38,240 nt of DNA from a virus (IMGVR_UViG_3300045912_000291:1-38240), one strand, 5' to 3'; counted from the stretch's first letter, positions 7,440 through 38,240 are shown. A program made the numbers and translations. Notes: generated by a model not told the origin, from the letters alone.

Positions 7440-7528
7440 GTCGCGAAAAACCCCTTGCGATACGCAAGCGACTAGCGTACAGTAGGAACCGTAGACAGAC
7501 ACCACCACGGAGCACCACGATGAACACC
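7440..7528 (+). repeat. 89-bp promoter-leader repeat, copy 1
   Basis: Identical to 8407-8495 over 89 bp, including the promoter, a palindromic operator-like site, the leader with GGAG and the first nine bases of the following gene. Sequence diverges immediately outside. Confidence 0.92.
7454..7490 (+). promoter_or_regulatory. Early promoter with overlapping palindrome
   Basis: -35 TTGCGA (7455-7460), 17-bp spacer, -10 TACAGT (7478-7483), start near 7490. The -35 box is embedded in a perfect 6-3-6 palindrome CTTGCG-ATA-CGCAAG (7454-7468), well placed for a repressor to block polymerase. Confidence 0.68.
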
Positions 7529-7678: not shown

Positions 7679-7701
7679 CCGGCCGCCCACGGAGCACCAC
7701 C

Positions 7702-7992
7702 ATGACCCGCGAAACCGCCAACCGCCTCGTCGACCGCGCCAGCACCCTGACCGCGATCGCCCGCACACACCTCGACCTCGAAACCCTCGCCGAGCGCCGG
7801 TCCGACCGGCTCGACTTCCACGAGCATGCCGTGTGGGCGGTCCGCGCCGCCCTCGAGGCCGCCTACGACGCCGGCCGCGCGGCGGGACACCTCGAGACCG
7901 CGCCCCAGGCCCAGCTGGTGCCGACACCCGCGCCGGCCGACCCGAAGGAGATCCTCGATATTCCCGCCTTCCTGCGCACGCAGGCATGGTGA
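7702..7992 (+). CDS. Small phage protein, DUF6900-like, 96 aa
   Basis: The segment HLDLETLAERRSDRLDFHEH followed by AVWAVRAALEAAYDAGRAAG resembles a widespread small phage and plasmid family (DUF6900-like) of unknown function, two helices around an LDFH motif. A proline-rich linker and a short C-terminal helix follow. The leader CCACGGAGCACCACC is directly upstream. The family match is from memory of the pattern. Confidence 0.7.
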   Translation: MTRETANRLVDRASTLTAIARTHLDLETLAERRSDRLDFHEHAVWAVRAALEAAYDAGRAAGHLETAPQAQLVPTPAPADPKEILDIPAFLRTQAW

Positions 7993-8406: not shown

Positions 8407-8495
8407 GTCGCGAAAAACCCCTTGCGATACGCAAGCGACTAGCGTACAGTAGGAACCGTAGACAGACACCACCACGGAGCACCACGATGAACACC
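8407..8495 (+). repeat. 89-bp promoter-leader repeat, copy 2
   Basis: Exact copy of 7440-7528, 967 bp downstream. It fills most of the 135-bp gap between 8351 and 8487. Confidence 0.92.
8421..8457 (+). promoter_or_regulatory. Early promoter with overlapping palindrome, copy 2
   Basis: -35 TTGCGA (8422-8427), 17-bp spacer, -10 TACAGT (8445-8450), with palindrome CTTGCG-ATA-CGCAAG at 8421-8435. Same design as 7454-7490. Confidence 0.68.
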
Positions 8496-9792: not shown

Positions 9793-9971
9793 GCACCACA
9801 CCCCTGTCCGCCCGCGTCCGACCCGGCTCCACGGCCGCCCCCTGGGTGATCGACGAGATCCACCGCCTCGAGGCCCAGCTGGCAACCGCCCTGGACGCCG
9901 CCGCCCAGCGCGCCGAGCCCTGGCGATCAGTAGGAACCGTAGACAGACACCACCACGGAGCACCACCATGA
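9789..9971 (+). CDS. Probably 3'-truncated early gene, 60 aa
   Basis: ATGA-coupled to the zinc-finger gene. Residues 1-46 look like an ordinary small protein with a helix (WVIDEIHRLEAQLATALDAA). The last 13-14 residues (VGTVDRHHHGAP) are encoded by a copy of the leader repeat (9928-9966), so the original 3' end seems to have been replaced when the repeat and the following gene were inserted. It may still be functional. Confidence 0.5.
   Translation: MSTTPLSARVRPGSTAAPWVIDEIHRLEAQLATALDAAAQRAEPWRSVGTVDRHHHGAPP
9928..9966 (+). repeat. Partial third copy of the promoter-leader repeat
   Basis: 39 bp identical to 7480-7518 and 8447-8485, holding only the leader. The -35 box, palindrome and most of the -10 box are missing, so it supplies a ribosome site but probably no promoter. 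Confidence 0.9.
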
Positions 9972-10171
9972 ACCTCTACCTGGTCCGCTTTACGCGCACC
10001 TTCACCGGCGGAACCCTGAACGGGATCAGCATGGATGACTCGATCACCCAGCCCAGCCTCGACGAGGCCAAGCGCACGATGGCGCTCCTGCGCCGCAACT
10101 CGGATGTCAAGCGCCCGGCTGGTGGCGGCAGCCCCTACCGCCTGAGCGACTTCCGAATCGAACGTTTCTAA
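9968..10171 (+). CDS. Hypothetical early protein, 67 aa
   Basis: ATG 9968 follows the leader with GGAG and overlaps the preceding stop as ATGA. The product starts NLYLVRFTRTFTGGTLNGIS, beta-rich, then DEAKRTMALLRRN and a basic C-terminus. No family is recognised. Confidence 0.62.
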   Translation: MNLYLVRFTRTFTGGTLNGISMDDSITQPSLDEAKRTMALLRRNSDVKRPAGGGSPYRLSDFRIERF

Positions 10172-25948: not shown

Positions 25949-26076
25949 GCCTCCCGCCGCGACCCCTTCCGCCGGACCGCCCGCGCGACCCGCCCGGCCA
26001 GCACGCTAACCGCCAGCGCGGCCGCCCTCGCGGCCTCACGCCGGCGCGCGCACGCCGAGCAGCCCGGCCGCTTCAC
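25945..26076 (-). CDS. 43-aa basic hypothetical protein
   Basis: GTG 26076 overlaps the connector stop as GTGA, and its own stop overlaps the head-closure start the same way. The product is very basic and alanine-rich, with one CSAC motif and a C-terminal RRKGSRREA. No family is recognised; the tight coupling on both sides supports translation. Confidence 0.55.
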   Translation of the reverse strand: MKRPGCSACARRREAARAAALAVSVLAGRVARAVRRKGSRREA

Positions 26077-26378
26077 ACCGAAACCTCCGCCCGGTATGGC
26101 CAGAGCAGATCGTGCGCCCGCTGCAGGAGCATGTCCCCATTTTGGGTGTCCCGGTCGAATTCCCACTCGACGTGCAGCAACAGCGCCGACTTGACGTCCT
26201 CGGGGACAGCCGGCGGAGATTCACCAGACTCCACCAGGTCGCCCAGGGACCGATTCAGGAACCCCTCCGCCCACCGCTCCGCCGCCGCGATCAAGCGCGC
26301 CAAGCGCGCGTCGTGCAACGTTTCGTCGACCTCGATGGCCACCTGCTCCTTCGCTTCTTCCAGCGACACCCACGTCAT
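26073..26378 (-). CDS. Head-tail connector protein (gp6-like)
   Basis: 101 aa, all-helical: LEEAKEQVAIEVDETLHDAR, LARLIAAAERWAEGFLNRSL, PEDVKSALLLHVEWEFD. This is the gp6-like (DNA-packaging/connector) pattern that rings the portal. ATG 26378 overlaps the glycosyltransferase stop as ATGA. In most related genomes this gene follows the capsid closely; here the sugar-transfer cassette is between them. Confidence 0.9.
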   Translation of the reverse strand: MTWVSLEEAKEQVAIEVDETLHDARLARLIAAAERWAEGFLNRSLGDLVESGESPPAVPEDVKSALLLHVEWEFDRDTQNGDMLLQRAHDLLWPYRAEVSV

Positions 26379-27088
26379 CGGTAGTGCTCCCGGACCCACG
26401 GATAGCGACGCCGAGTCGCAGCTTGCCACGGATCGACGTGGCCGTGGAATACGACAATGCGAGCATTCGCAGGCAGCACCAGCCCGCCGCGCGGCTTGAT
26501 CTCGTTCCGATAGGAGTACACCCCGTCCGCCGCCGACCATGTCGGCTCGCCCGGCCCGAGCGCGACGCCCAGCCACGCCTGGTCGGACCCGATGTACCCC
26601 CGCGCCCGCCCGAGCTGCGGCGACCGGACCGGATCGAACTCCGTCCACACCCGCGGCCGCGACCCAGTCCGGAGCAGCAGCATCGACCCGTTGTACGGCG
26701 TGCCGCGCGCGGTATCCCCATACAGGACCACGTCCTCGGGACGGTCCCACAGCGGCGCGACGTCACCGACCAGGACCATGTCCAGGTCCAGCGACACCAC
26801 CCGCTCCCCGAACCACCGCGCAGCATCCGGATGGAACAGCCGCAGCCGCCGGTAACAGCTCGGATTAACCCCGCCATGCGGCGACGGCACGTCCTCGAAG
26901 TCCCCGAACAGCGGCAGCACCTCGATCCCCGGATCGAGCCCAGCCGGATCGTCGGTGACGCAGATGAACCGATGCGGCCGCGCGTAGCAGCGCGCCACCA
27001 TCCGCCGGAGCACATTTACCTGCTCCGGCCCAAACTCCGACCGATACCGCGCCTTCGGGCGCCATTTCCAGCACACGACCGACAGCAT
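26375..27088 (-). CDS. Glycosyltransferase, GT8-like
   Basis: 237 aa. VVSLDLDMVLVGDVAPLWD supplies a DxD-type nucleotide-sugar site followed by the 'decorated' loop typical of galactosyl/glucosyl transferases of the GT8 type; PYNGSMLLLRTG and GSDQAWLGVALG continue the pattern, and IVVFHGHVDPW near the end adds conserved histidines. Last gene of the sugar-transfer cassette. It starts at ATG 27088 (or GTG 27091) directly on the preceding stop. Sugar and acceptor are unknown. Confidence 0.8.
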   Translation of the reverse strand: MLSVVCWKWRPKARYRSEFGPEQVNVLRRMVARCYARPHRFICVTDDPAGLDPGIEVLPLFGDFEDVPSPHGGVNPSCYRRLRLFHPDAARWFGERVVSLDLDMVLVGDVAPLWDRPEDVVLYGDTARGTPYNGSMLLLRTGSRPRVWTEFDPVRSPQLGRARGYIGSDQAWLGVALGPGEPTWSAADGVYSYRNEIKPRGGLVLPANARIVVFHGHVDPWQAATRRRYPWVREHYR

Positions 27089-27303
27089 CACACCCCCCTG
27101 TGCAGCCGATTGAACAGCCGCCGCAGCGCGTAGGACCGCACGAGCGACAGCACCGTGAACACGCCGCCCATCCAGAACGCCTCGCCAGCCGACACCGGAT
27201 AGCCGAATGCCGGCAGGACCACCAGGTTCGCCGCCCAAGCCACGCCGAAGCCCACCAGGACGTTGATCACGGCCTCCGCCGCGGAGCCCAGCCTAGACTG
27301 CAC
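27088..27303 (-). CDS. Small membrane protein, DUF7220-like
   Basis: 71 aa with two membrane helices (AVINVLVGFGVAWAANLVVL and AGEAFWMGGVFTVLSLV) and the ending SYALRRLFNRL. The pattern matches the DUF7220 family of phage membrane proteins, whose function is unknown. GTG 27303 overlaps the upstream gene by 11 bp. Its place inside the sugar cassette might mean a membrane step in glycan supply, or only shared transcription. Confidence 0.78.
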   Translation of the reverse strand: MQSRLGSAAEAVINVLVGFGVAWAANLVVLPAFGYPVSAGEAFWMGGVFTVLSLVRSYALRRLFNRLHRGV

Positions 27304-27964
27304 AAGCCCGCCTGGGAGTGCGCTCGAAACCGATGTGGTAGACCCGCGGCTTCAGCGGCCGGACGGTCAACCCGCCATCGACCCAGGACCGCGCCATCAT
27401 CTGCGCCTCCGTTTCGGCACCGCGCGCCAGGTCCAGGACGTCCCGCGCGCGAACCACGCTCGGCGGATTCCCGTAGTGGATCGAGCCCACCTCCGCCGGC
27501 TCCGGCGCCTCCCGCCACTGCTGCCAGTTGGCCGGCTCCCCGGTCCCCCGATGCCGCGTCCCGCACGGCCGGCGCCCGCCCTCCTCCTTGAACTGCCCGT
27601 ACAGCCGCAGCTGCCGGAACCCCGGCAGCTTGCGCGCCTCTTCGAACAGCGGCCACGGGAACGACCACACCCACCGCCAGTCATTCTCAAGCAGCAGCAT
27701 CCAGTCGATCCCGCGCCCCACCACCGCCGCAGCGAGCTGCTCGACCATCCGCGTGACCCCAACCCGGCCGCCCGGCTCCGACTGGACCACGGTCTCGAAT
27801 CCGCCCTGGCGCGCGAACCGCGGAACGCGCCGGTCATCGGACGCATCGTCCCCGTGCAGGAGCACGAAAGGCGCCTGGGAATTCCAGCGGAGGAACGAAT
27901 GCACCGTTTCCTGCGTGTAGGCGAGCCGGTCGCACGTCAGCAGGCAGACGGCGACCTTGCTCAC
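27293..27964 (-). CDS. Glycosyltransferase-like protein, GT2-like
   Basis: 223 aa. Starts KVAVCLLTCDRLAYTQETVH, with HGDDASDD and LLLENDWRW where GT-A enzymes carry their acidic metal-binding residues, then YHIGFERTPR near the end. These features fit a compact family-2-like glycosyltransferase of phage type. GTG 27964 overlaps the methyltransferase stop as GTGA. No signal peptide; cytoplasmic. Confidence 0.75.
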   Translation of the reverse strand: MSKVAVCLLTCDRLAYTQETVHSFLRWNSQAPFVLLHGDDASDDRRVPRFARQGGFETVVQSEPGGRVGVTRMVEQLAAAVVGRGIDWMLLLENDWRWVWSFPWPLFEEARKLPGFRQLRLYGQFKEEGGRRPCGTRHRGTGEPANWQQWREAPEPAEVGSIHYGNPPSVVRARDVLDLARGAETEAQMMARSWVDGGLTVRPLKPRVYHIGFERTPRRACAV

Positions 27965-28485
27965 GGCGAGACCACCAAGAGCGCCGCGTACTCGCGCTGC
28001 CGCAGCGCCGCAACCTCCTGGAACTTCCCGTGCAGCGCCAGCCGGCGCCGCCACCACTTCGGCGACTCGACGATCAGATGATCCATCCGCCCGTCCGCCA
28101 GCTGGCGCTTGCCCGGCCGGCACGCCGCAGCCACCAGGACCCCGCCCGTCCCAAGCGACACGAGATGACCGACCACCTCGTCCAGGCACTCCGGCTCCAC
28201 GTGCTCGAGCACGTCCGTGCACACCACCAGCTCGGCCGGTTCCGGTTCCGCATCCTTGCCAGGCACCGCTGGGTCGAATTCCCGCACCTCGAGGCCCGGC
28301 TCGATCATCAGCAGCGCCCGCCGGAGCGAGCCCTTGCCGCACCCGTAGTCCAACACCGTCCGCCACCGATGCCGCCGGACCAAATCGATCACCCGCTCGG
28401 CCCACGCGTGACCCTTCGACCCGTAGCCGGGATACTTCCCGTGCAGCTCGACGTTCGCTGCCTTGTACCCGTCCGAAATTCTCAC
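27961..28485 (-). CDS. Class I SAM-dependent methyltransferase
   Basis: 174 aa. VLDYGCGKGSLRRALL is motif I, REFDPAVPG holds the motif II acid, and VVCTDVLEHVEPE is motif IV of the ubiquinone/methyltransferase-11/23 type; ESPKWWRRRL follows. The opening SDGYKAANVELHGKYPGYGS resembles phage methyltransferases found in sugar loci. GTGA overlaps on both sides. A small-molecule or sugar substrate is more likely than DNA, because no DNA-binding part is present. Confidence 0.85.
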   Translation of the reverse strand: MRISDGYKAANVELHGKYPGYGSKGHAWAERVIDLVRRHRWRTVLDYGCGKGSLRRALLMIEPGLEVREFDPAVPGKDAEPEPAELVVCTDVLEHVEPECLDEVVGHLVSLGTGGVLVAAACRPGKRQLADGRMDHLIVESPKWWRRRLALHGKFQEVAALRQREYAALLVVSP

Positions 28486-28646
28486 AATTCAGCGCCCTCC
28501 GCCGGACCCGTGCCCGGCTCGTATTCCCACAGCCCACACCGCCGCTCGGCCGCCTTCTCCCGCGCCAGGCACCAGAGCTGGCCGCCCCGCCAGGTCGACC
28601 AGCGACAGCTCCGCCAGCCCCAGGTCGCCGTCAGGCCGGCACCCAT
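28482..28646 (-). CDS. 54-aa hypothetical protein
   Basis: ATG 28646 overlaps the FkbM gene by 16 bp and its stop overlaps the next start as GTGA. Tryptophan-rich, with WRGGQLWCLAREKAAERRCG and LWEYEPGTG, a possible small beta-hairpin unit. The coupling argues that it is translated; no family is recognised. Confidence 0.5.
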   Translation of the reverse strand: MGAGLTATWGWRSCRWSTWRGGQLWCLAREKAAERRCGLWEYEPGTGPAEGAEL

Positions 28647-29254
28647 ACCTCGTCCTTCGACACCCGGATGTGCCGCCGATACCCAACCGCCTGCAGCCAG
28701 CAAGCCACCGCCTCCTGCTGGCGAGCCCACACCTCGAGATGCAGCAGCGGCCGGCACCGCTCCAGCGTTCGCCGCGCCCCCTCGAGCGCCGACAGCTCAT
28801 AGCCCTCCACGTCCAGCACGATCGCGCCGACCGCGGCGCCGCCGACCAGCGTGTCGATCGTCTCGCACGCGACCTCGACCGTCCCGGTCGCCGACACGGC
28901 CCAGGACCCAGCCCGATGATCCGGCACCATCCGCAGCCGGCCGGCGACAGGCGCCAACGCCAGCTCGTGCACCTCGATGTTCCGGAGCCCCGCCAGGTTG
29001 CGCCGGAGACACTCCGCCAGCGCCGGGTCCGGCTCGCACGTCAGCACCCGCCCGAAATGCCGCGCCAGCACGGCCGGCCACTGCCCGACGTGCCCGCCCG
29101 CCTGCACCACCAGCTGATCCGCGGCGCCCGGCCCGGCCAGCTCGAGCAGCGGCCCCAGGTCGGCCAGATGCTTGCGGACGTAGTCGAGCGTCCGCCGCGG
29201 CCAGCGATCGTAGACCGGCCACCACAGACACTCGCCCTGCCACCAACGGATCAC
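28631..29254 (-). CDS. FkbM-family methyltransferase
   Basis: 207 aa. VVQAGGHVGQWPAVLARHFG is the SAM-binding loop, LTCEPDPALAECLRRNL the second acidic motif, and DVEGYELSALEGARRTLERC the FkbM signature (D-x-EG-x-E...L-x-G). FkbM enzymes usually O-methylate sugars or small molecules, so this gene suggests that the product of the neighbouring glycosyltransferases is methylated. GTG 29254 overlaps the GT2 stop as GTGA. Confidence 0.87.
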   Translation of the reverse strand: MIRWWQGECLWWPVYDRWPRRTLDYVRKHLADLGPLLELAGPGAADQLVVQAGGHVGQWPAVLARHFGRVLTCEPDPALAECLRRNLAGLRNIEVHELALAPVAGRLRMVPDHRAGSWAVSATGTVEVACETIDTLVGGAAVGAIVLDVEGYELSALEGARRTLERCRPLLHLEVWARQQEAVACWLQAVGYRRHIRVSKDEVWVPA

Positions 29255-29979
29255 AGCTGCCGCTCCCATTCGAAGTCCAGGACCGTGATCTGCCCCGCGC
29301 GGCCGGCCGCCTTCTTGCGCGCCAGGATCGCCTCGAGCTGCGCCGGACGGTCCGGCGACTTCCGCACCAGCGTGGTGGTCGAGGCATCCGGGATCACGTC
29401 CCGAGAAAACCGCCACAGCTTCAGCTCTTCCCGATGTTCGTGCTCACCTACCGCCAGGAGCTGCCGCCGGAATTGCCCGTCCGTGCCGTAGTAGCCGGTC
29501 AGATCCTCGTCATATCCGCCCGCCTTCCAGTACAGGTCGGAATGCAGGACGTAGGAATTCGGATGCGGCGCCTTCGGCTTCGGGTTTTCGAGCTTCCCAG
29601 AGCCCGGCGCGTCCAGCCGCCCCAGAGTCCGGAACACGCGCGGCGACTTGCACCCCAGCGCGAACAACACCACCTCGACGGACGGCACGTGGTCCATGTC
29701 CGTCAGGATGAGCCAGCCCGGCGTCGAGACCTTCACCCCCAGGTTGCGCGCCCCGTCCTGATGCCAGGGACGATCCTCGAGCACCCGGTAGATTTCCAGC
29801 TCCGGCAGCCCGCCCGGACGCGGCACCTCAACCGCCGGCCACCGCGGCGACCCGTCGTCGACCACAACGCACCGCACGCGGCCCCGAACCCCGGATGGCC
29901 AGGCCCGCCACGCCTCGAACTGCCGAGCCAGCATGCCCGGATTGTCGTAGTAGGCCAGGACCAGCGACACCCGCCTCAC
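29251..29979 (-). CDS. Glycosyltransferase family 2 protein
   Basis: 242 aa. VRRVSLVLAYYDNPGMLARQ opens a GT-A fold, CVVVDDGSPRW carries the DDGS nucleotide-binding motif (about residue 41), and WLILTDMDHVP the DxD metal site (about 95); YWKAGGYDEDLTGYYGTDGQ is the acceptor/catalytic loop of GT2 enzymes. Starts on GTG 29979, overlapping the previous stop as GTGA. Cytoplasmic. Together with its neighbours it should assemble a short glycan. Confidence 0.87.
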   Translation of the reverse strand: MRRVSLVLAYYDNPGMLARQFEAWRAWPSGVRGRVRCVVVDDGSPRWPAVEVPRPGGLPELEIYRVLEDRPWHQDGARNLGVKVSTPGWLILTDMDHVPSVEVVLFALGCKSPRVFRTLGRLDAPGSGKLENPKPKAPHPNSYVLHSDLYWKAGGYDEDLTGYYGTDGQFRRQLLAVGEHEHREELKLWRFSRDVIPDASTTTLVRKSPDRPAQLEAILARKKAAGRAGQITVLDFEWERQL

Positions 29980-30671
29980 GGACGCCCGGTCCAGTAGTCG
30001 CACAGCAGCGAGCGCTGCACCGGCTTCGGCGCCAGCGATGAATTCGCCGAACCGAGATCGTGAGACACCAGCGACGGCACCCGGTACATCAGCCGCATCC
30101 CCCTCTTCGACAGCCATCCCGAGATGATCCCGTCCCGGTTCCGGTTCTTCACCCAGCCCAGGACGGTCGCCTCGAAGTCCCGCGACGCCGCCAGCTGACC
30201 CGCCATGCCCGGCGGGAACAGGTACGCCTGAGAGCCCCAGCACAGCCCGCCCAGCTGCGACTCATGCCAGCCGGCCCGCAACGGCCGGCCGCCCCTGCTT
30301 TCTAACTCGCGCGACACCTTCCGCGCAAGGTAAAGCGACAGGTAGCCCACGTCCGCCGGCCAGCGCCGCCCCAGCTCCGCATCAAGCGCCGCCGCAGCGC
30401 CCTCCGCCCACAGGATGTCGTCCTCGAGCACGCCCACCCAGGACCCCGGCGACCGCTTCACCGCCAGCCGAAACGCGTGCAGCCAATTCCTGAGCCCGCC
30501 GCGTGGCGGATCGTTGACCACCAGCTCGACCGGCCCGAGCAGCGGCTCCGACGGCAGCCCGTCGGACACGACGAGCAGCGGCCCGTCGAACCCCGCCTGG
30601 CGAAATGACGCAACGGACCGCCGGATCGTCGAGACCGGCCGCGGCGCCGTGGTCATCACCCAAGAGATCAC
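29976..30671 (-). CDS. Glycosyltransferase, GT25-like
   Basis: 231 aa from GTG 30671, which overlaps the upstream stop as GTGA. TTAPRPVSTIRRSVASFRQA opens the fold, WVGVLEDDILWAEGAA has the EDD metal motif of GT25-type enzymes, and MYRVPSLVSHDLGSANSS is the C-terminal signature I associate with phage glycosyltransferases. The longer upstream open frame is out-of-frame sequence of the preceding gene. The donor sugar is unknown. Confidence 0.8.
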   Translation of the reverse strand: MISWVMTTAPRPVSTIRRSVASFRQAGFDGPLLVVSDGLPSEPLLGPVELVVNDPPRGGLRNWLHAFRLAVKRSPGSWVGVLEDDILWAEGAAAALDAELGRRWPADVGYLSLYLARKVSRELESRGGRPLRAGWHESQLGGLCWGSQAYLFPPGMAGQLAASRDFEATVLGWVKNRNRDGIISGWLSKRGMRLMYRVPSLVSHDLGSANSSLAPKPVQRSLLCDYWTGRP

Positions 30672-31141
30672 GCCAGCACGTCGCGCAGCTCGGCGCGAGG
30701 GAAGGCCCGCAGCGCCGTCTCCCGCGTGCAATTGACAACCTCGACGCCAGCCGCCGCCAGGTCCAGCGCCAGCGGCGCGAAACGCGGCAACCACCGCGAG
30801 TAGTGGGTTCCGTTGTGAAGCCCGCCAGCATGACGCCCGTGCCAATGCACCCGCCCGCCGGTCTGCTGCATGTCGTACCCCAGGAGGATGATCCGCGCTG
30901 CGCCGAACAGCGCAGCCAGCCCGATCGCCTGGTAGCCAGAATTCCCGCCACCGTTGATCCGATCCGGACCACGCGCGAGCCCCTCATCCGGCGCATGCTG
31001 GATCCAGTAGAGCCCGAACTTCGATCGCGCCTGCTCGGACACCGTCCAGCACTCCCCACGGAACCCCCGCTGGATCTCCGGCCAGTAGACCCGCCAGAAC
31101 TGGAAGTCCGCCGCGTACAGCGCGCAGGCCCACGGAGCCAT
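30668..31141 (-). CDS. Phage sugar-locus protein with SGPSL/GYDM motifs (N-terminus continues upstream)
   Basis: From the first standard start, ATG 31141, 157 aa: APWACALYAADFQFWRVYW, NGGGNSGYQAIGLAALFGA, RIILLGYDMQQTGG and HWHGRHAGGLHN. It resembles phage proteins with a nucleotide-sugar-binding-like fold found next to glycosyltransferases. Homology-like sequence continues in the same frame upstream to about 31245, including GETVVCAASGPSL and RARLIVVNATFR, but no ATG, GTG or TTG exists there. The true product is therefore probably longer, by frameshift, unusual start or a sequencing indel. ATG 31141 has no ribosome site. Confidence 0.65.
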   Translation of the reverse strand: MAPWACALYAADFQFWRVYWPEIQRGFRGECWTVSEQARSKFGLYWIQHAPDEGLARGPDRINGGGNSGYQAIGLAALFGAARIILLGYDMQQTGGRVHWHGRHAGGLHNGTHYSRWLPRFAPLALDLAAAGVEVVNCTRETALRAFPRAELRDVLA

Positions 31142-31164
31142 GCGAAAGGTCGCGTTGACGACGA

Positions 31165-31485
31165 TCAGCCGTGCTCGGCCCCGGACGAAGTCGACGTCTT
31201 CTTGCGTGAGCGACGGCCCGCTGGCCGCGCAGACGACGGTCTCCCCTCGCCACCTTCCCGCAGGACCGCCGAGCTGCGAGCGTGCACGTTTCCCTCCGGC
31301 TCCAGCGTCTCCGGCGCGCGCCGCACGGCCGCGTTGACCGGCGCCGCCGCCACGGCGAGCTTCACCTCCTCCGCCAACCGCTGCCGGACCAACGCCCGAC
31401 CGTAGGTGTCCTCCACCGTCAGCACGAGACCCGCCCGGACCATCCCGAGCCGGCCGCGAAACGATCGCAATGCCCGAACTTGCAT
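31165..31485 (-). CDS. Small protein downstream of the capsid gene, 106 aa
   Basis: ATG 31485 has GGAGGT five bases upstream, right after the terminator T-run. The N-terminal 45 residues (QVRALRSFRGRLGMVRAGLV, LTVEDTYGRALVRQRLAEEV) resemble short phage proteins common beside capsid genes. The C-terminal half is low-complexity and overlaps the upstream extension of the next gene by about 80 bp. A -1 shift at its GAG-GGG codons would continue into the SGPSL sequence. Function unknown. Confidence 0.68.
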   Translation of the reverse strand: MQVRALRSFRGRLGMVRAGLVLTVEDTYGRALVRQRLAEEVKLAVAAAPVNAAVRRAPETLEPEGNVHARSSAVLREGGEGRPSSARPAGRRSRKKTSTSSGAEHG

Positions 31486-31575: not shown

Positions 31576-32769
31576 TCAGGTCGTCGAGCCGGCCGGGAAG
31601 TTACCGTGCACGAACGCCGCCGGCCGCGAAACGGCCAGCGCCAGCCGCTCCTCCGCCAGGATCGTAACCATGTTCCGGCGGAAGTTGTCGCCATCTTCCG
31701 TCGAGACCATGATCGACGCCTGCTCGCGGTCGAACACCGTCGCCGCCATGCGGAACGCGCCCACCAGGAACTCGTCCACCTGCATCGCGTCGGACTCGAC
31801 CACCGGCAGACCCCACAGCATCGCCGGAGCGCGGCCAGTCGGAGCCGCCATCAGGTAGCGGTTCTCGTTGTCCTTCGTCAGCTCGATGTTGTGCCAATCC
31901 ACCGGATTCAGCACCACACCGGACGCCGGATAGAACGCCAGCCGCACCTGGAGGATCGCGTGACGGATCACGTCGATGTAGGTGTCGGTCGACTTCGCGT
32001 AGGCGCCAGAGTAGACGGTCGCCTGCGGGATCAGACCCAGGATATTCTCCCCGGTGCCGTCGCCGAGCAGGAGCTGATCCTCTTCCGCGATCTTCAGACC
32101 CCAGGTCAGCCGCCCGTCGATCAGGGTCCGCAGCTGCTTGAAGTCCGCCAGCACCTGGCGCGTGGCCAGGATCCAGTGCGCGATCGTCCGAACCGGCACG
32201 TCCTCGCGGGAGTACGTGATGTTCGACTCCGGCTTAAGCGTGCCCTCCGACACAACGTCCGCCGCCGACGTGTAGACGTTTTCACGGACCCACTCGATCA
32301 GGTTCGAGTCAGTCGTGCCCTGGTCGAGCAGCGCACGGATGGTCAGCGGCCGCAGCGGCTCCTCGATGACGCCCGGAAGGCGCGTCGACCAGATGCCAGA
32401 GCCGCCCGAGCCCGTGAGCGACGTGATCGTCTTGAGCTGGTGCGCCCGCCCCTTGCCGCGACCGCCCGCCGCCACAAACTCCTTCAGCTCCGGCGACTCG
32501 ACGAACACCTCGCCCGCCGACTTCTCGCGCTGCGGCGCGCCCGCAGACCGCTGCTCGCCGACCTTCTGCTCAAGCGCGAACAGCCGGTCGTGCAGCTCCT
32601 GACCCTTCTTGGACAGCTCCGCGATCGCGTCCTTGGTGCCTTCCTGCACCTTGCCGAACCGCTCGAGATCCTCCTGCGCCTTTTTCGTAGCGACGAGCAC
32701 CTCGGCGTCTCGCTCCTTCATCGCCTCGCGGATGCCCGCAAGCAGCGAAGTCCTCTCTTCCTGGTTCAT
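31576..32769 (-). CDS. Major capsid protein (HK97 fold)
   Basis: 397 aa. An N-terminal coiled coil (about residues 1-80, including DLERFGKVQEGTKDAIAELS) serves as the scaffolding delta-domain and should be removed by the adjacent protease. The mature region shows LLDQGTTDSNLIEWVRE, PVRTIAHWILATRQVLAD, EDQLLLGDGTGENILGL, GVVLNPVDWHNIELTKD and LWGLPVVESDAM, all standard for HK97-type capsids. GAGGAG lies upstream of ATG 32769, and the start overlaps the protease stop as ATGA. Followed by a strong terminator. Confidence 0.95.
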   Translation of the reverse strand: MNQEERTSLLAGIREAMKERDAEVLVATKKAQEDLERFGKVQEGTKDAIAELSKKGQELHDRLFALEQKVGEQRSAGAPQREKSAGEVFVESPELKEFVAAGGRGKGRAHQLKTITSLTGSGGSGIWSTRLPGVIEEPLRPLTIRALLDQGTTDSNLIEWVRENVYTSAADVVSEGTLKPESNITYSREDVPVRTIAHWILATRQVLADFKQLRTLIDGRLTWGLKIAEEDQLLLGDGTGENILGLIPQATVYSGAYAKSTDTYIDVIRHAILQVRLAFYPASGVVLNPVDWHNIELTKDNENRYLMAAPTGRAPAMLWGLPVVESDAMQVDEFLVGAFRMAATVFDREQASIMVSTEDGDNFRRNMVTILAEERLALAVSRPAAFVHGNFPAGSTT

Positions 32770-37885: not shown

Positions 37886-38240
37886 CTATGCCGCCCGACG
37901 CCGCGCGGCAGCGACCTCGGAGAACGTCCGCCCATCCTCCAGGACCGCCGACTTGCCCGTGAACGCCTCCCAGCGCCGCACGATCACGTCGACGAACCTC
38001 GGCTCCAGCTCGACCAGCCTGGCCCGCCGGCCATGCTGCTCCGCAGCAATCAGGGTCGAACCCGACCCGCCGAACGGATCCAGCACGATGTCGCCGATCC
38101 GCGACGAATTGAGCAGCATCCGCCCGATCAGCTCGGTCGGCTTCATGGTCGGATGCTCCTCCGAGCGCTTCGGCTTGGCGACCCGCAGCACGGTCGGCTG
38201 CACGGCCTCGACCACCAGGCCCTCGCCCCGCACCAGGACC
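37886..38240 (-). CDS. ParB-domain DNA methyltransferase, C-terminal part (cut by the window end)
   Basis: Continuation of the gene at 1-1048. SEEHPTMKPTELIGRMLL and VLDPFGGSGSTLIAAEQHGR (SAM-binding FxGxG) and ELEPRFVDVIVRRWEAFTGK form the C-terminal half of the enzyme. The in-frame sequence at the window edge is VLVRGEGL. The stretch around a conserved DY...HEP element that normally lies between the two halves is not found on either side, so about 30 bases may be missing between the window ends. Confidence 0.88.
   Translation of the reverse strand, partial: VLVRGEGLVVEAVQPTVLRVAKPKRSEEHPTMKPTELIGRMLLNSSRIGDIVLDPFGGSGSTLIAAEQHGRRARLVELEPRFVDVIVRRWEAFTGKSAVLEDGRTFSEVAAARRRAA

Follow-up and report, generated by a model that had tools for sequence, protein, structure and literature searches.

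A Candidate Glycan-Modification Cassette in a Phage Head Module, Linked to a Post-Capsid Protein by a Predicted Frameshift

INTRODUCTION

To our knowledge, the acceptor proteins of phage-encoded sugar transferases are mostly unknown. Among the closest described systems are those of mycobacteriophages, whose capsid and tail subunits carry glycans (cited in PMC12619734) and among which virion glycosylation in Che8-type phages was reported by Freeman 2023 (as related in PMC11256854 and PMC12619734). A separate body of work concerns recoding, by which phage virion proteins gain Ig-like and carbohydrate-binding domains through frameshifts (PMC5009743, PMC6669499). Outside phages, the Maf enzymes, which have the MptE-like Pfam domain (PF01973) and a CstII-like fold, O-glycosylate flagellin (PMC11339370). 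In our search of the open literature, whose coverage was incomplete, no description of a frameshift-linked glycosyltransferase was found. Here, we analyze a group of genes for sugar transfer and methylation situated within the head module of a viral genome, the first of which is predicted to be translated as a frameshifted extension of the protein encoded immediately after the capsid.

RESULTS

Gene content of the cassette

The window, i.e., the whole stretch of DNA analyzed here, has a length of 38,240 bp and constitutes one whole virus record. Its ends (positions 2 to 919 and 37886 to 38233) match two parts of PHROG 498, such that one ParB-like/DNA methyltransferase gene is split over both ends of the record, and the window therefore probably represents an entire siphophage genome in circularly permuted form. 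The structural genes are on the minus strand in the order terminase, portal, protease, capsid, h126, cassette, connector, adaptor, and tail genes. The cassette comprises nine minus-strand genes (g1 to g9; 26375 to ~31255) between the major capsid gene and the gp6-like connector gene, and all nine open reading frames (ORFs) were called by a codon-usage gene finder trained on the other genes of the window. The flanking genes and g2 to g9 are as follows.

31576..32769, minus strand: major capsid protein (HK97 type), 397 aa; 44% identity to HK97 gp5 over 98%, and gene order
29976..30671, minus strand: g2, glucosyltransferase-like, 231 aa; PHROG 854, E 6e-8
29251..29979, minus strand: g3, GT2-family glycosyltransferase, 242 aa; Pfam Glycos_transf_2
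28631..29254, minus strand: g4, FkbM methyltransferase, 207 aa; PF05050, 1.5e-14
28482..28646, minus strand: g5, 54-aa protein; ORF and coding score only
27961..28485, minus strand: g6, class I methyltransferase, 174 aa; PF13489, 1.1e-5; PHROG 24759, 6e-18
27293..27964, minus strand: g7, GT-A-like protein (motifs only), 223 aa; motifs shared with two relatives
27088..27303, minus strand: g8, DUF7220 small hydrophobic protein, 71 aa; PF23858, 1.1e-28, 99.8 bits, above the Pfam cutoff
26375..27088, minus strand: g9, GT8-like glycosyltransferase, 237 aa; invariant DxD and DQ motifs, PDB profile matches
26073..26378, minus strand: gp6-like head-tail connector (Phage_connect_1); PF05135, 7e-8

Adjacent genes are joined by short overlaps, mostly GTGA, as the original prediction held. 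There are five GTGA junctions (g1/g2, g2/g3, g3/g4, g5/g6, and g6/g7) and one ATGA junction (g9/connector), and the remaining overlaps are of 16 nt (g4/g5), 11 nt (g7/g8), and 1 nt (g8/g9). At least five of the encoded proteins are glycosyltransferase-like, and two are methyltransferases. The FkbM label was borne out by a PF05050 match of 54.9 bits, over a cutoff of 22.7, and the DUF7220 and class I methyltransferase labels by the matches listed above. The GT2 match of g3 is weak in the window (Glycos_transf_2, 0.011) but reaches 9e-10 in the homologue from contig L004. The best-conserved enzyme of the cassette is g9, in which D101, D103, D169, and Q170 are invariant and form the DxD and second catalytic motifs; its profile matches Skp1 galactosyltransferase (1e-5) and glycogenin (2e-4) in the PDB, placing it in GT8 as had been proposed, and it also matches a PHROG glycosyltransferase (1e-12). 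For g7, earlier labeled GT2-like, family and PDB searches yielded no match; its GT-A-like motifs DR, HxDDxS, and LLLEND are kept in the homologues from Tetraselmis virus S20 and contig L031. Relatives of g5 were sought, and none were found. Taken together, the family matches and the junction overlaps uphold the prediction of a glycosyltransferase and methyltransferase set that sits within the head genes and is coupled to them in translation.

Elsewhere in the window, an 89-nt element is repeated at 7440 to 7528, 8407 to 8495, 9888 to 9976, and 7687 to 7716 (two copies identical and two partial), with every copy ending in CCACGGAGCACCAC(C/G)ATGA ahead of a plus-strand ATG. These repeats could serve early genes as promoters or leaders.

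Distribution among phages

Related gene sets occupy the same head-module site in about 30 related metagenomic phages and in S20. Relatives of g9 are encoded on 55 viral contigs, about 20 of which share the terminase-portal-protease-capsid-h126 order of the window and have the cassette in the same place. The same order and a same-site cassette are present in contig L059, which was found independently via its capsid (66% identity), and a second capsid-based scan added further carriers, all of which have g1. The cassette of this clade consists of g1, a GT-D/methyltransferase fusion, a further methyltransferase-like gene, a second g1-like gene, a GT2 gene, and g9, followed by the connector. Phages with capsids that are 46 to 52% identical but with different terminases have compact heads without the cassette. 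The comparison with relatives lacking the cassette, suggested in the original prediction, thus shows a position that is conserved across the lineage and absent from its compact relatives.

Beyond this lineage, other phage types with protease-capsid fusions contain shuffled sets of the same families farther downstream, and in some phages (L033 and L037 to L043) related genes are located away from the head genes. No cellular genomes with the cassette were found; one contig scan returned four Rhizobiales loci, and the three from which a capsid gene was recovered were without the cassette. The same-site carriers in one lineage and the shuffled sets elsewhere show the cassette to be a trait conserved in that lineage and recurrent in other phages.

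Two observations concern individual carriers. A collagen-like (GxY repeat) protein is encoded just upstream of the sugar-transfer genes in L020, L031, L052, L166, L180, and L191, and it may be an acceptor in those protease-capsid-fusion phages. The records of "Tetraselmis viridis virus" S20 and SI1 (NC_020840 / HQ632857) have an ordinary tailed-phage gene content, and their stated algal host is doubtful.

The start of g1 and its overlap with h126

Three features define the region immediately after the capsid gene.

31165..31485, minus strand: h126, post-capsid small head-module protein, 106 aa, proposed zero frame; PHROG 2616, E 6e-9
31288..31294, minus strand: slippery heptamer G GGA AAC, in phase with h126; XXXAAAN at this place in 22 of 27 relatives
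30668..31287, minus strand: g1, MptE/GT42-like transferase domain, -1 frame after the heptamer; PHROG 4603, 2e-50

The original prediction treated the first cassette gene as an ordinary ORF, which it is not. The g1 frame contains no ATG, GTG, or TTG ahead of the SGPSL motif; the earliest such codon (31141) comes after it. The conserved N terminus, GRWxGETVxxxASGPSL, precedes all possible starts and falls inside the 3' end of h126. The overlap with h126 extends over ~90 nt. Of the nine coupled genes originally placed in the head module, all nine ORFs are present, but the first is not normally started. The downstream frame is open, is -1 relative to the upstream gene, and is without a start of its own, as in a frameshift, and the predicted h126-g1 fusion has a length of 272 aa.

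The conserved N terminus is kept without a nearby in-frame start in all 31 clade relatives examined; in L017, L059, and L091, the only g1 starts are remote, 67 to 96 codons upstream. We considered and rejected an indel from sequencing of the window as the cause, since the arrangement is common to all relatives. Missing start codons were also set aside as an argument in themselves: an NTG codon in the -1 frame requires TGN in h126, which is poor in Cys and Trp, so that the absence of starts is statistically unsurprising and the argument rests on motif conservation and the heptamers. Within the overlap, the third codon position of g1 is the most variable (pairwise differences of 0.34, 0.35, and 0.55 for the three positions) despite being the second codon position of h126, indicating that selection acts on the g1 reading.

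Among 123 g1-like places surveyed, 47 have no start within 45 codons. Where a capsid gene is present, start-less g1 is located 305 to 644 nt after it in 36 of 36 distinct cases, and g1 with a start is located at least 1991 nt from it in 23 of 23 cases (the motif positions of these 23 are approximate to ~50 nt).

The slippery heptamer

In its zero frame, the overlap contains an X XXY YYZ heptamer that is conserved beyond chance, and heptamers of the types seen here are known frameshift sites (PMC5009743). An X XXA AAN heptamer in the h126 phase, no more than 40 codons upstream of the GRW tryptophan, occurs in 22 of 27 nonredundant loci, compared with the 1.84 of 27 expected from codon shuffles (P ~ 1e-23; because the loci are related, this and the following P value overstate their independence). 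The background rate of XXXAAAN windows in other genes of the same genomes is 1.3%, and the homologous h126 gene of noncarriers has the heptamer in 1 of 17 cases. A good XXXAAAN heptamer is absent from 5 of the 27 relatives, as well as from L107 and Psp6, and several of the relatives lacking it (L017, L089, and S20) have CCCTTTA/G instead. No common RNA stem was found after the slip site in the relatives, whose downstream structure is inconsistent (mean z, -0.73), and Shine-Dalgarno-like matches upstream of the slip site are mostly of 3 to 4 of 6 positions.

The absence of heptamers from some relatives, and the in-frame GTG offered by phages D3 and PMG1, would be consistent with production of g1 from a noncanonical start or by reinitiation, without a frameshift, in which case the heptamers would reflect an amino acid constraint on h126. 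This explanation is quite improbable. Gly-Lys pairs are encoded by (G)GGA AAR in 12 of 14 cases at the slip site versus 9 of 416 elsewhere (P = 4e-16), a bias that points to more than amino acid constraint. Moreover, heptamers of different sequence (GGGAAAA, GGGAAAC, AAAAAAA, AAAAAAC, and CCCAAAA) substitute for each other among relatives, and in nearly all loci, the h126 stop comes after the g1 motif, which reinitiation at that stop would therefore miss. A programmed -1 frameshift joining h126 to g1 is the predicted arrangement, and it is strongly supported by these patterns of conservation.

Recurrence in other phages

The start-less -1 arrangement is repeated in four protease-capsid-fusion lineages, with heptamers CCCAAAA/AAAAAAG, CCCAAAG, and CCCTTTG/A. 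The cultured Pseudomonas phage D3 has the gene order capsid orf6, orf6.5, orf7, and connector; homology to g1 starts within orf6.5, in the -1 frame and downstream of C CCA AAG, and orf7 is annotated from a start after the g1 motif. The in-frame GTG of D3 and PMG1 is 20 codons upstream of the g1 motif and is replaced by TTG in D14C, and in Psp6, g1 has neither a start nor a clear heptamer.

Database records contain further homologues. Those of g1 in PAJU2 (AP009624 ORF010) and Eowyn (LR881104 LLCLJKAH_00005) were deposited as "structural protein," and pmgO, pmgP, and pmgQ of P1 (NC_005856, 79592 to 82150) are two g1-like genes and one g9-like GT8 gene, which may together form a glycan-modification set.

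Predicted structures of h126 and g1

Residues 1 to 40 of h126 were modeled at a pLDDT of ~96, with Foldseek matches to the ribosomal L9 N domain and to the prophage protein YqbF, which we take to be the product of the post-capsid gene of the Bacillus subtilis skin prophage. Relatives of h126 show weak similarity to DUF7210.

The PHROG 4603 family, which g1 matches at 2e-50, is annotated as "alpha-2,3-sialyltransferase." The match of g1 to MptE-like PF01973 scores 21.3 bits, below the Pfam cutoff of 34.6 and thus short of membership, and matches to CstII (E, 0.2) and MptE among PDB sequences are weak. The AlphaFold model of g1, built from the start-less part onward, has a pLDDT of 95.6, and its first central beta strand and GxS loop are formed by the start-less part, ahead of the first ATG. 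In Foldseek searches, the best credible PDB match was thiamine pyrophosphokinase (TM, 0.45), with a weak match to ST6GALNAC2 (probability, 0.54), and phage MptE-like models in BFVD matched with TM values up to ~0.7. From these matches, g1 is likely a transferase. The internal starts from which S20, D3, and others annotate this enzyme cut off its first strand and GxS loop, a systematic annotation error that is corrected here.

DISCUSSION

The cassette is probably a glycan-modification system of the head module that is tied to the head by recoding, the h126-g1 frameshift serving a virion glycan that the cassette builds and methylates. Ribosomes translating h126 would shift into the -1 frame at G GGA AAC, with a minority making the 272-aa fusion, such that most of the product would be h126 alone and some would be h126-g1. 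The fusion would join a small head-module domain through a linker to an MptE/GT42-like transferase, and its h126 domain may bring the transferase to the assembling head. There, g1 could place a first sugar or sialic acid-like residue on a virion protein, after which the cotranslated soluble enzymes (GT2, GT25-like, and GT8) might extend the glycan, in an order that is conjectural, and the FkbM and class I methyltransferases would cap or methylate it. We infer that the virion is the target of the cassette, and the frameshift link of start-less g1 to h126 appears to be the strongest clue for the head as the site of action.

All carriers in the clade have capsids with a Gly-Ser/Thr tail at the C terminus, and those of close noncarriers end in FANA. 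A Ser/Thr-rich capsid C terminus was nevertheless rejected as proof of the acceptor: HK97-type noncarriers end in SSGS, and protease-capsid-fusion carriers are mixed. A comparison of tail-tube C termini revealed no pattern.

In a somewhat unlikely extension of the proposal, the fusion would itself be a virion component, that is, a particle-tethered glycosyltransferase that modifies the capsid as it assembles or acts on the next host upon entry; this would have arisen repeatedly in unrelated phages, the classical phage D3 among them. In a similarly unlikely reading, the frameshift would be real but would only set a low level of expression, the head domain having no targeting role and the cassette modifying the host envelope (receptor masking or superinfection exclusion). 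Phage glycosyltransferases that alter the O-antigen are established, soluble glycosyltransferases and methyltransferases of these types also serve host glycan pathways, a small hydrophobic DUF7220 protein is present, and in other phages, related sets lie close to terminase or tail genes. However, the late, head-embedded position is conserved across the whole lineage, and the families found include no flippase, polymerase, or lipid-carrier enzyme. Nor would a role in expression level alone predict the restriction of the start-less form to the place immediately behind the post-capsid gene.

Hypermodification of phage DNA by the cassette enzymes, yielding glycosylated and methylated bases, is very improbable. 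Virus-encoded glycosyltransferases that act on DNA exist (Pyle 2024, cited in PMC12619734), and the phage has a DNA methyltransferase gene, but a nonexhaustive scan of the early genes detected no hydroxymethylase or thymidylate synthase-like gene, the cassette has a late head location, and g1 is linked to a head-module protein.

Under the favored reading, in which the cassette modifies the virion, conserved recoding that joins a sugar enzyme to a capsid-neighbor protein would point to the target of such enzymes. A silent change of the slip site would act as a switch that removes the fusion while leaving h126 untouched. D3 has been in culture for decades, so the frameshift could be tested in it directly.

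Precedents for virion glycosylation and for frameshift-added domains exist separately, and we found their apparent combination in no report. As in the Che8-type mycobacteriophages, for which phage-encoded glycosyltransferases are proposed to decorate structural proteins, the enzymes here would act on the particle. In contrast, those of the related phage Maravista are separate genes near the genome end, whereas here they are inside the head module, one of them frameshift linked to the post-capsid protein, and the virion acceptor is putative. The predicted fusion resembles the Ig-like and carbohydrate-binding extensions in that a structural-module protein would be extended in a minority of copies, but the added domain has an enzyme-like transferase fold and is not a binding domain. 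With Maf and the GT42 enzyme CstII, g1 shares likeness to the PF01973/MptE-like domain, although its Pfam and CstII matches are of the low scores given above; Maf O-glycosylates surface Ser/Thr residues of a filament protein. P1 PmgO, PmgP, and PmgQ, assigned a "putative morphogenetic function," are likewise g1 and g9 like, but the P1 copies have normal starts. S20 and SI1 have the same cassette site with g1, glycosyltransferases, methyltransferases, FkbM, g7, and g9, and differ in gene order, in annotation as separate genes, and in a C CCT TTG heptamer. At this site, D3 does not have the full cassette but shows the same order of capsid, small gene, g1, and connector, with g1 in the -1 frame.
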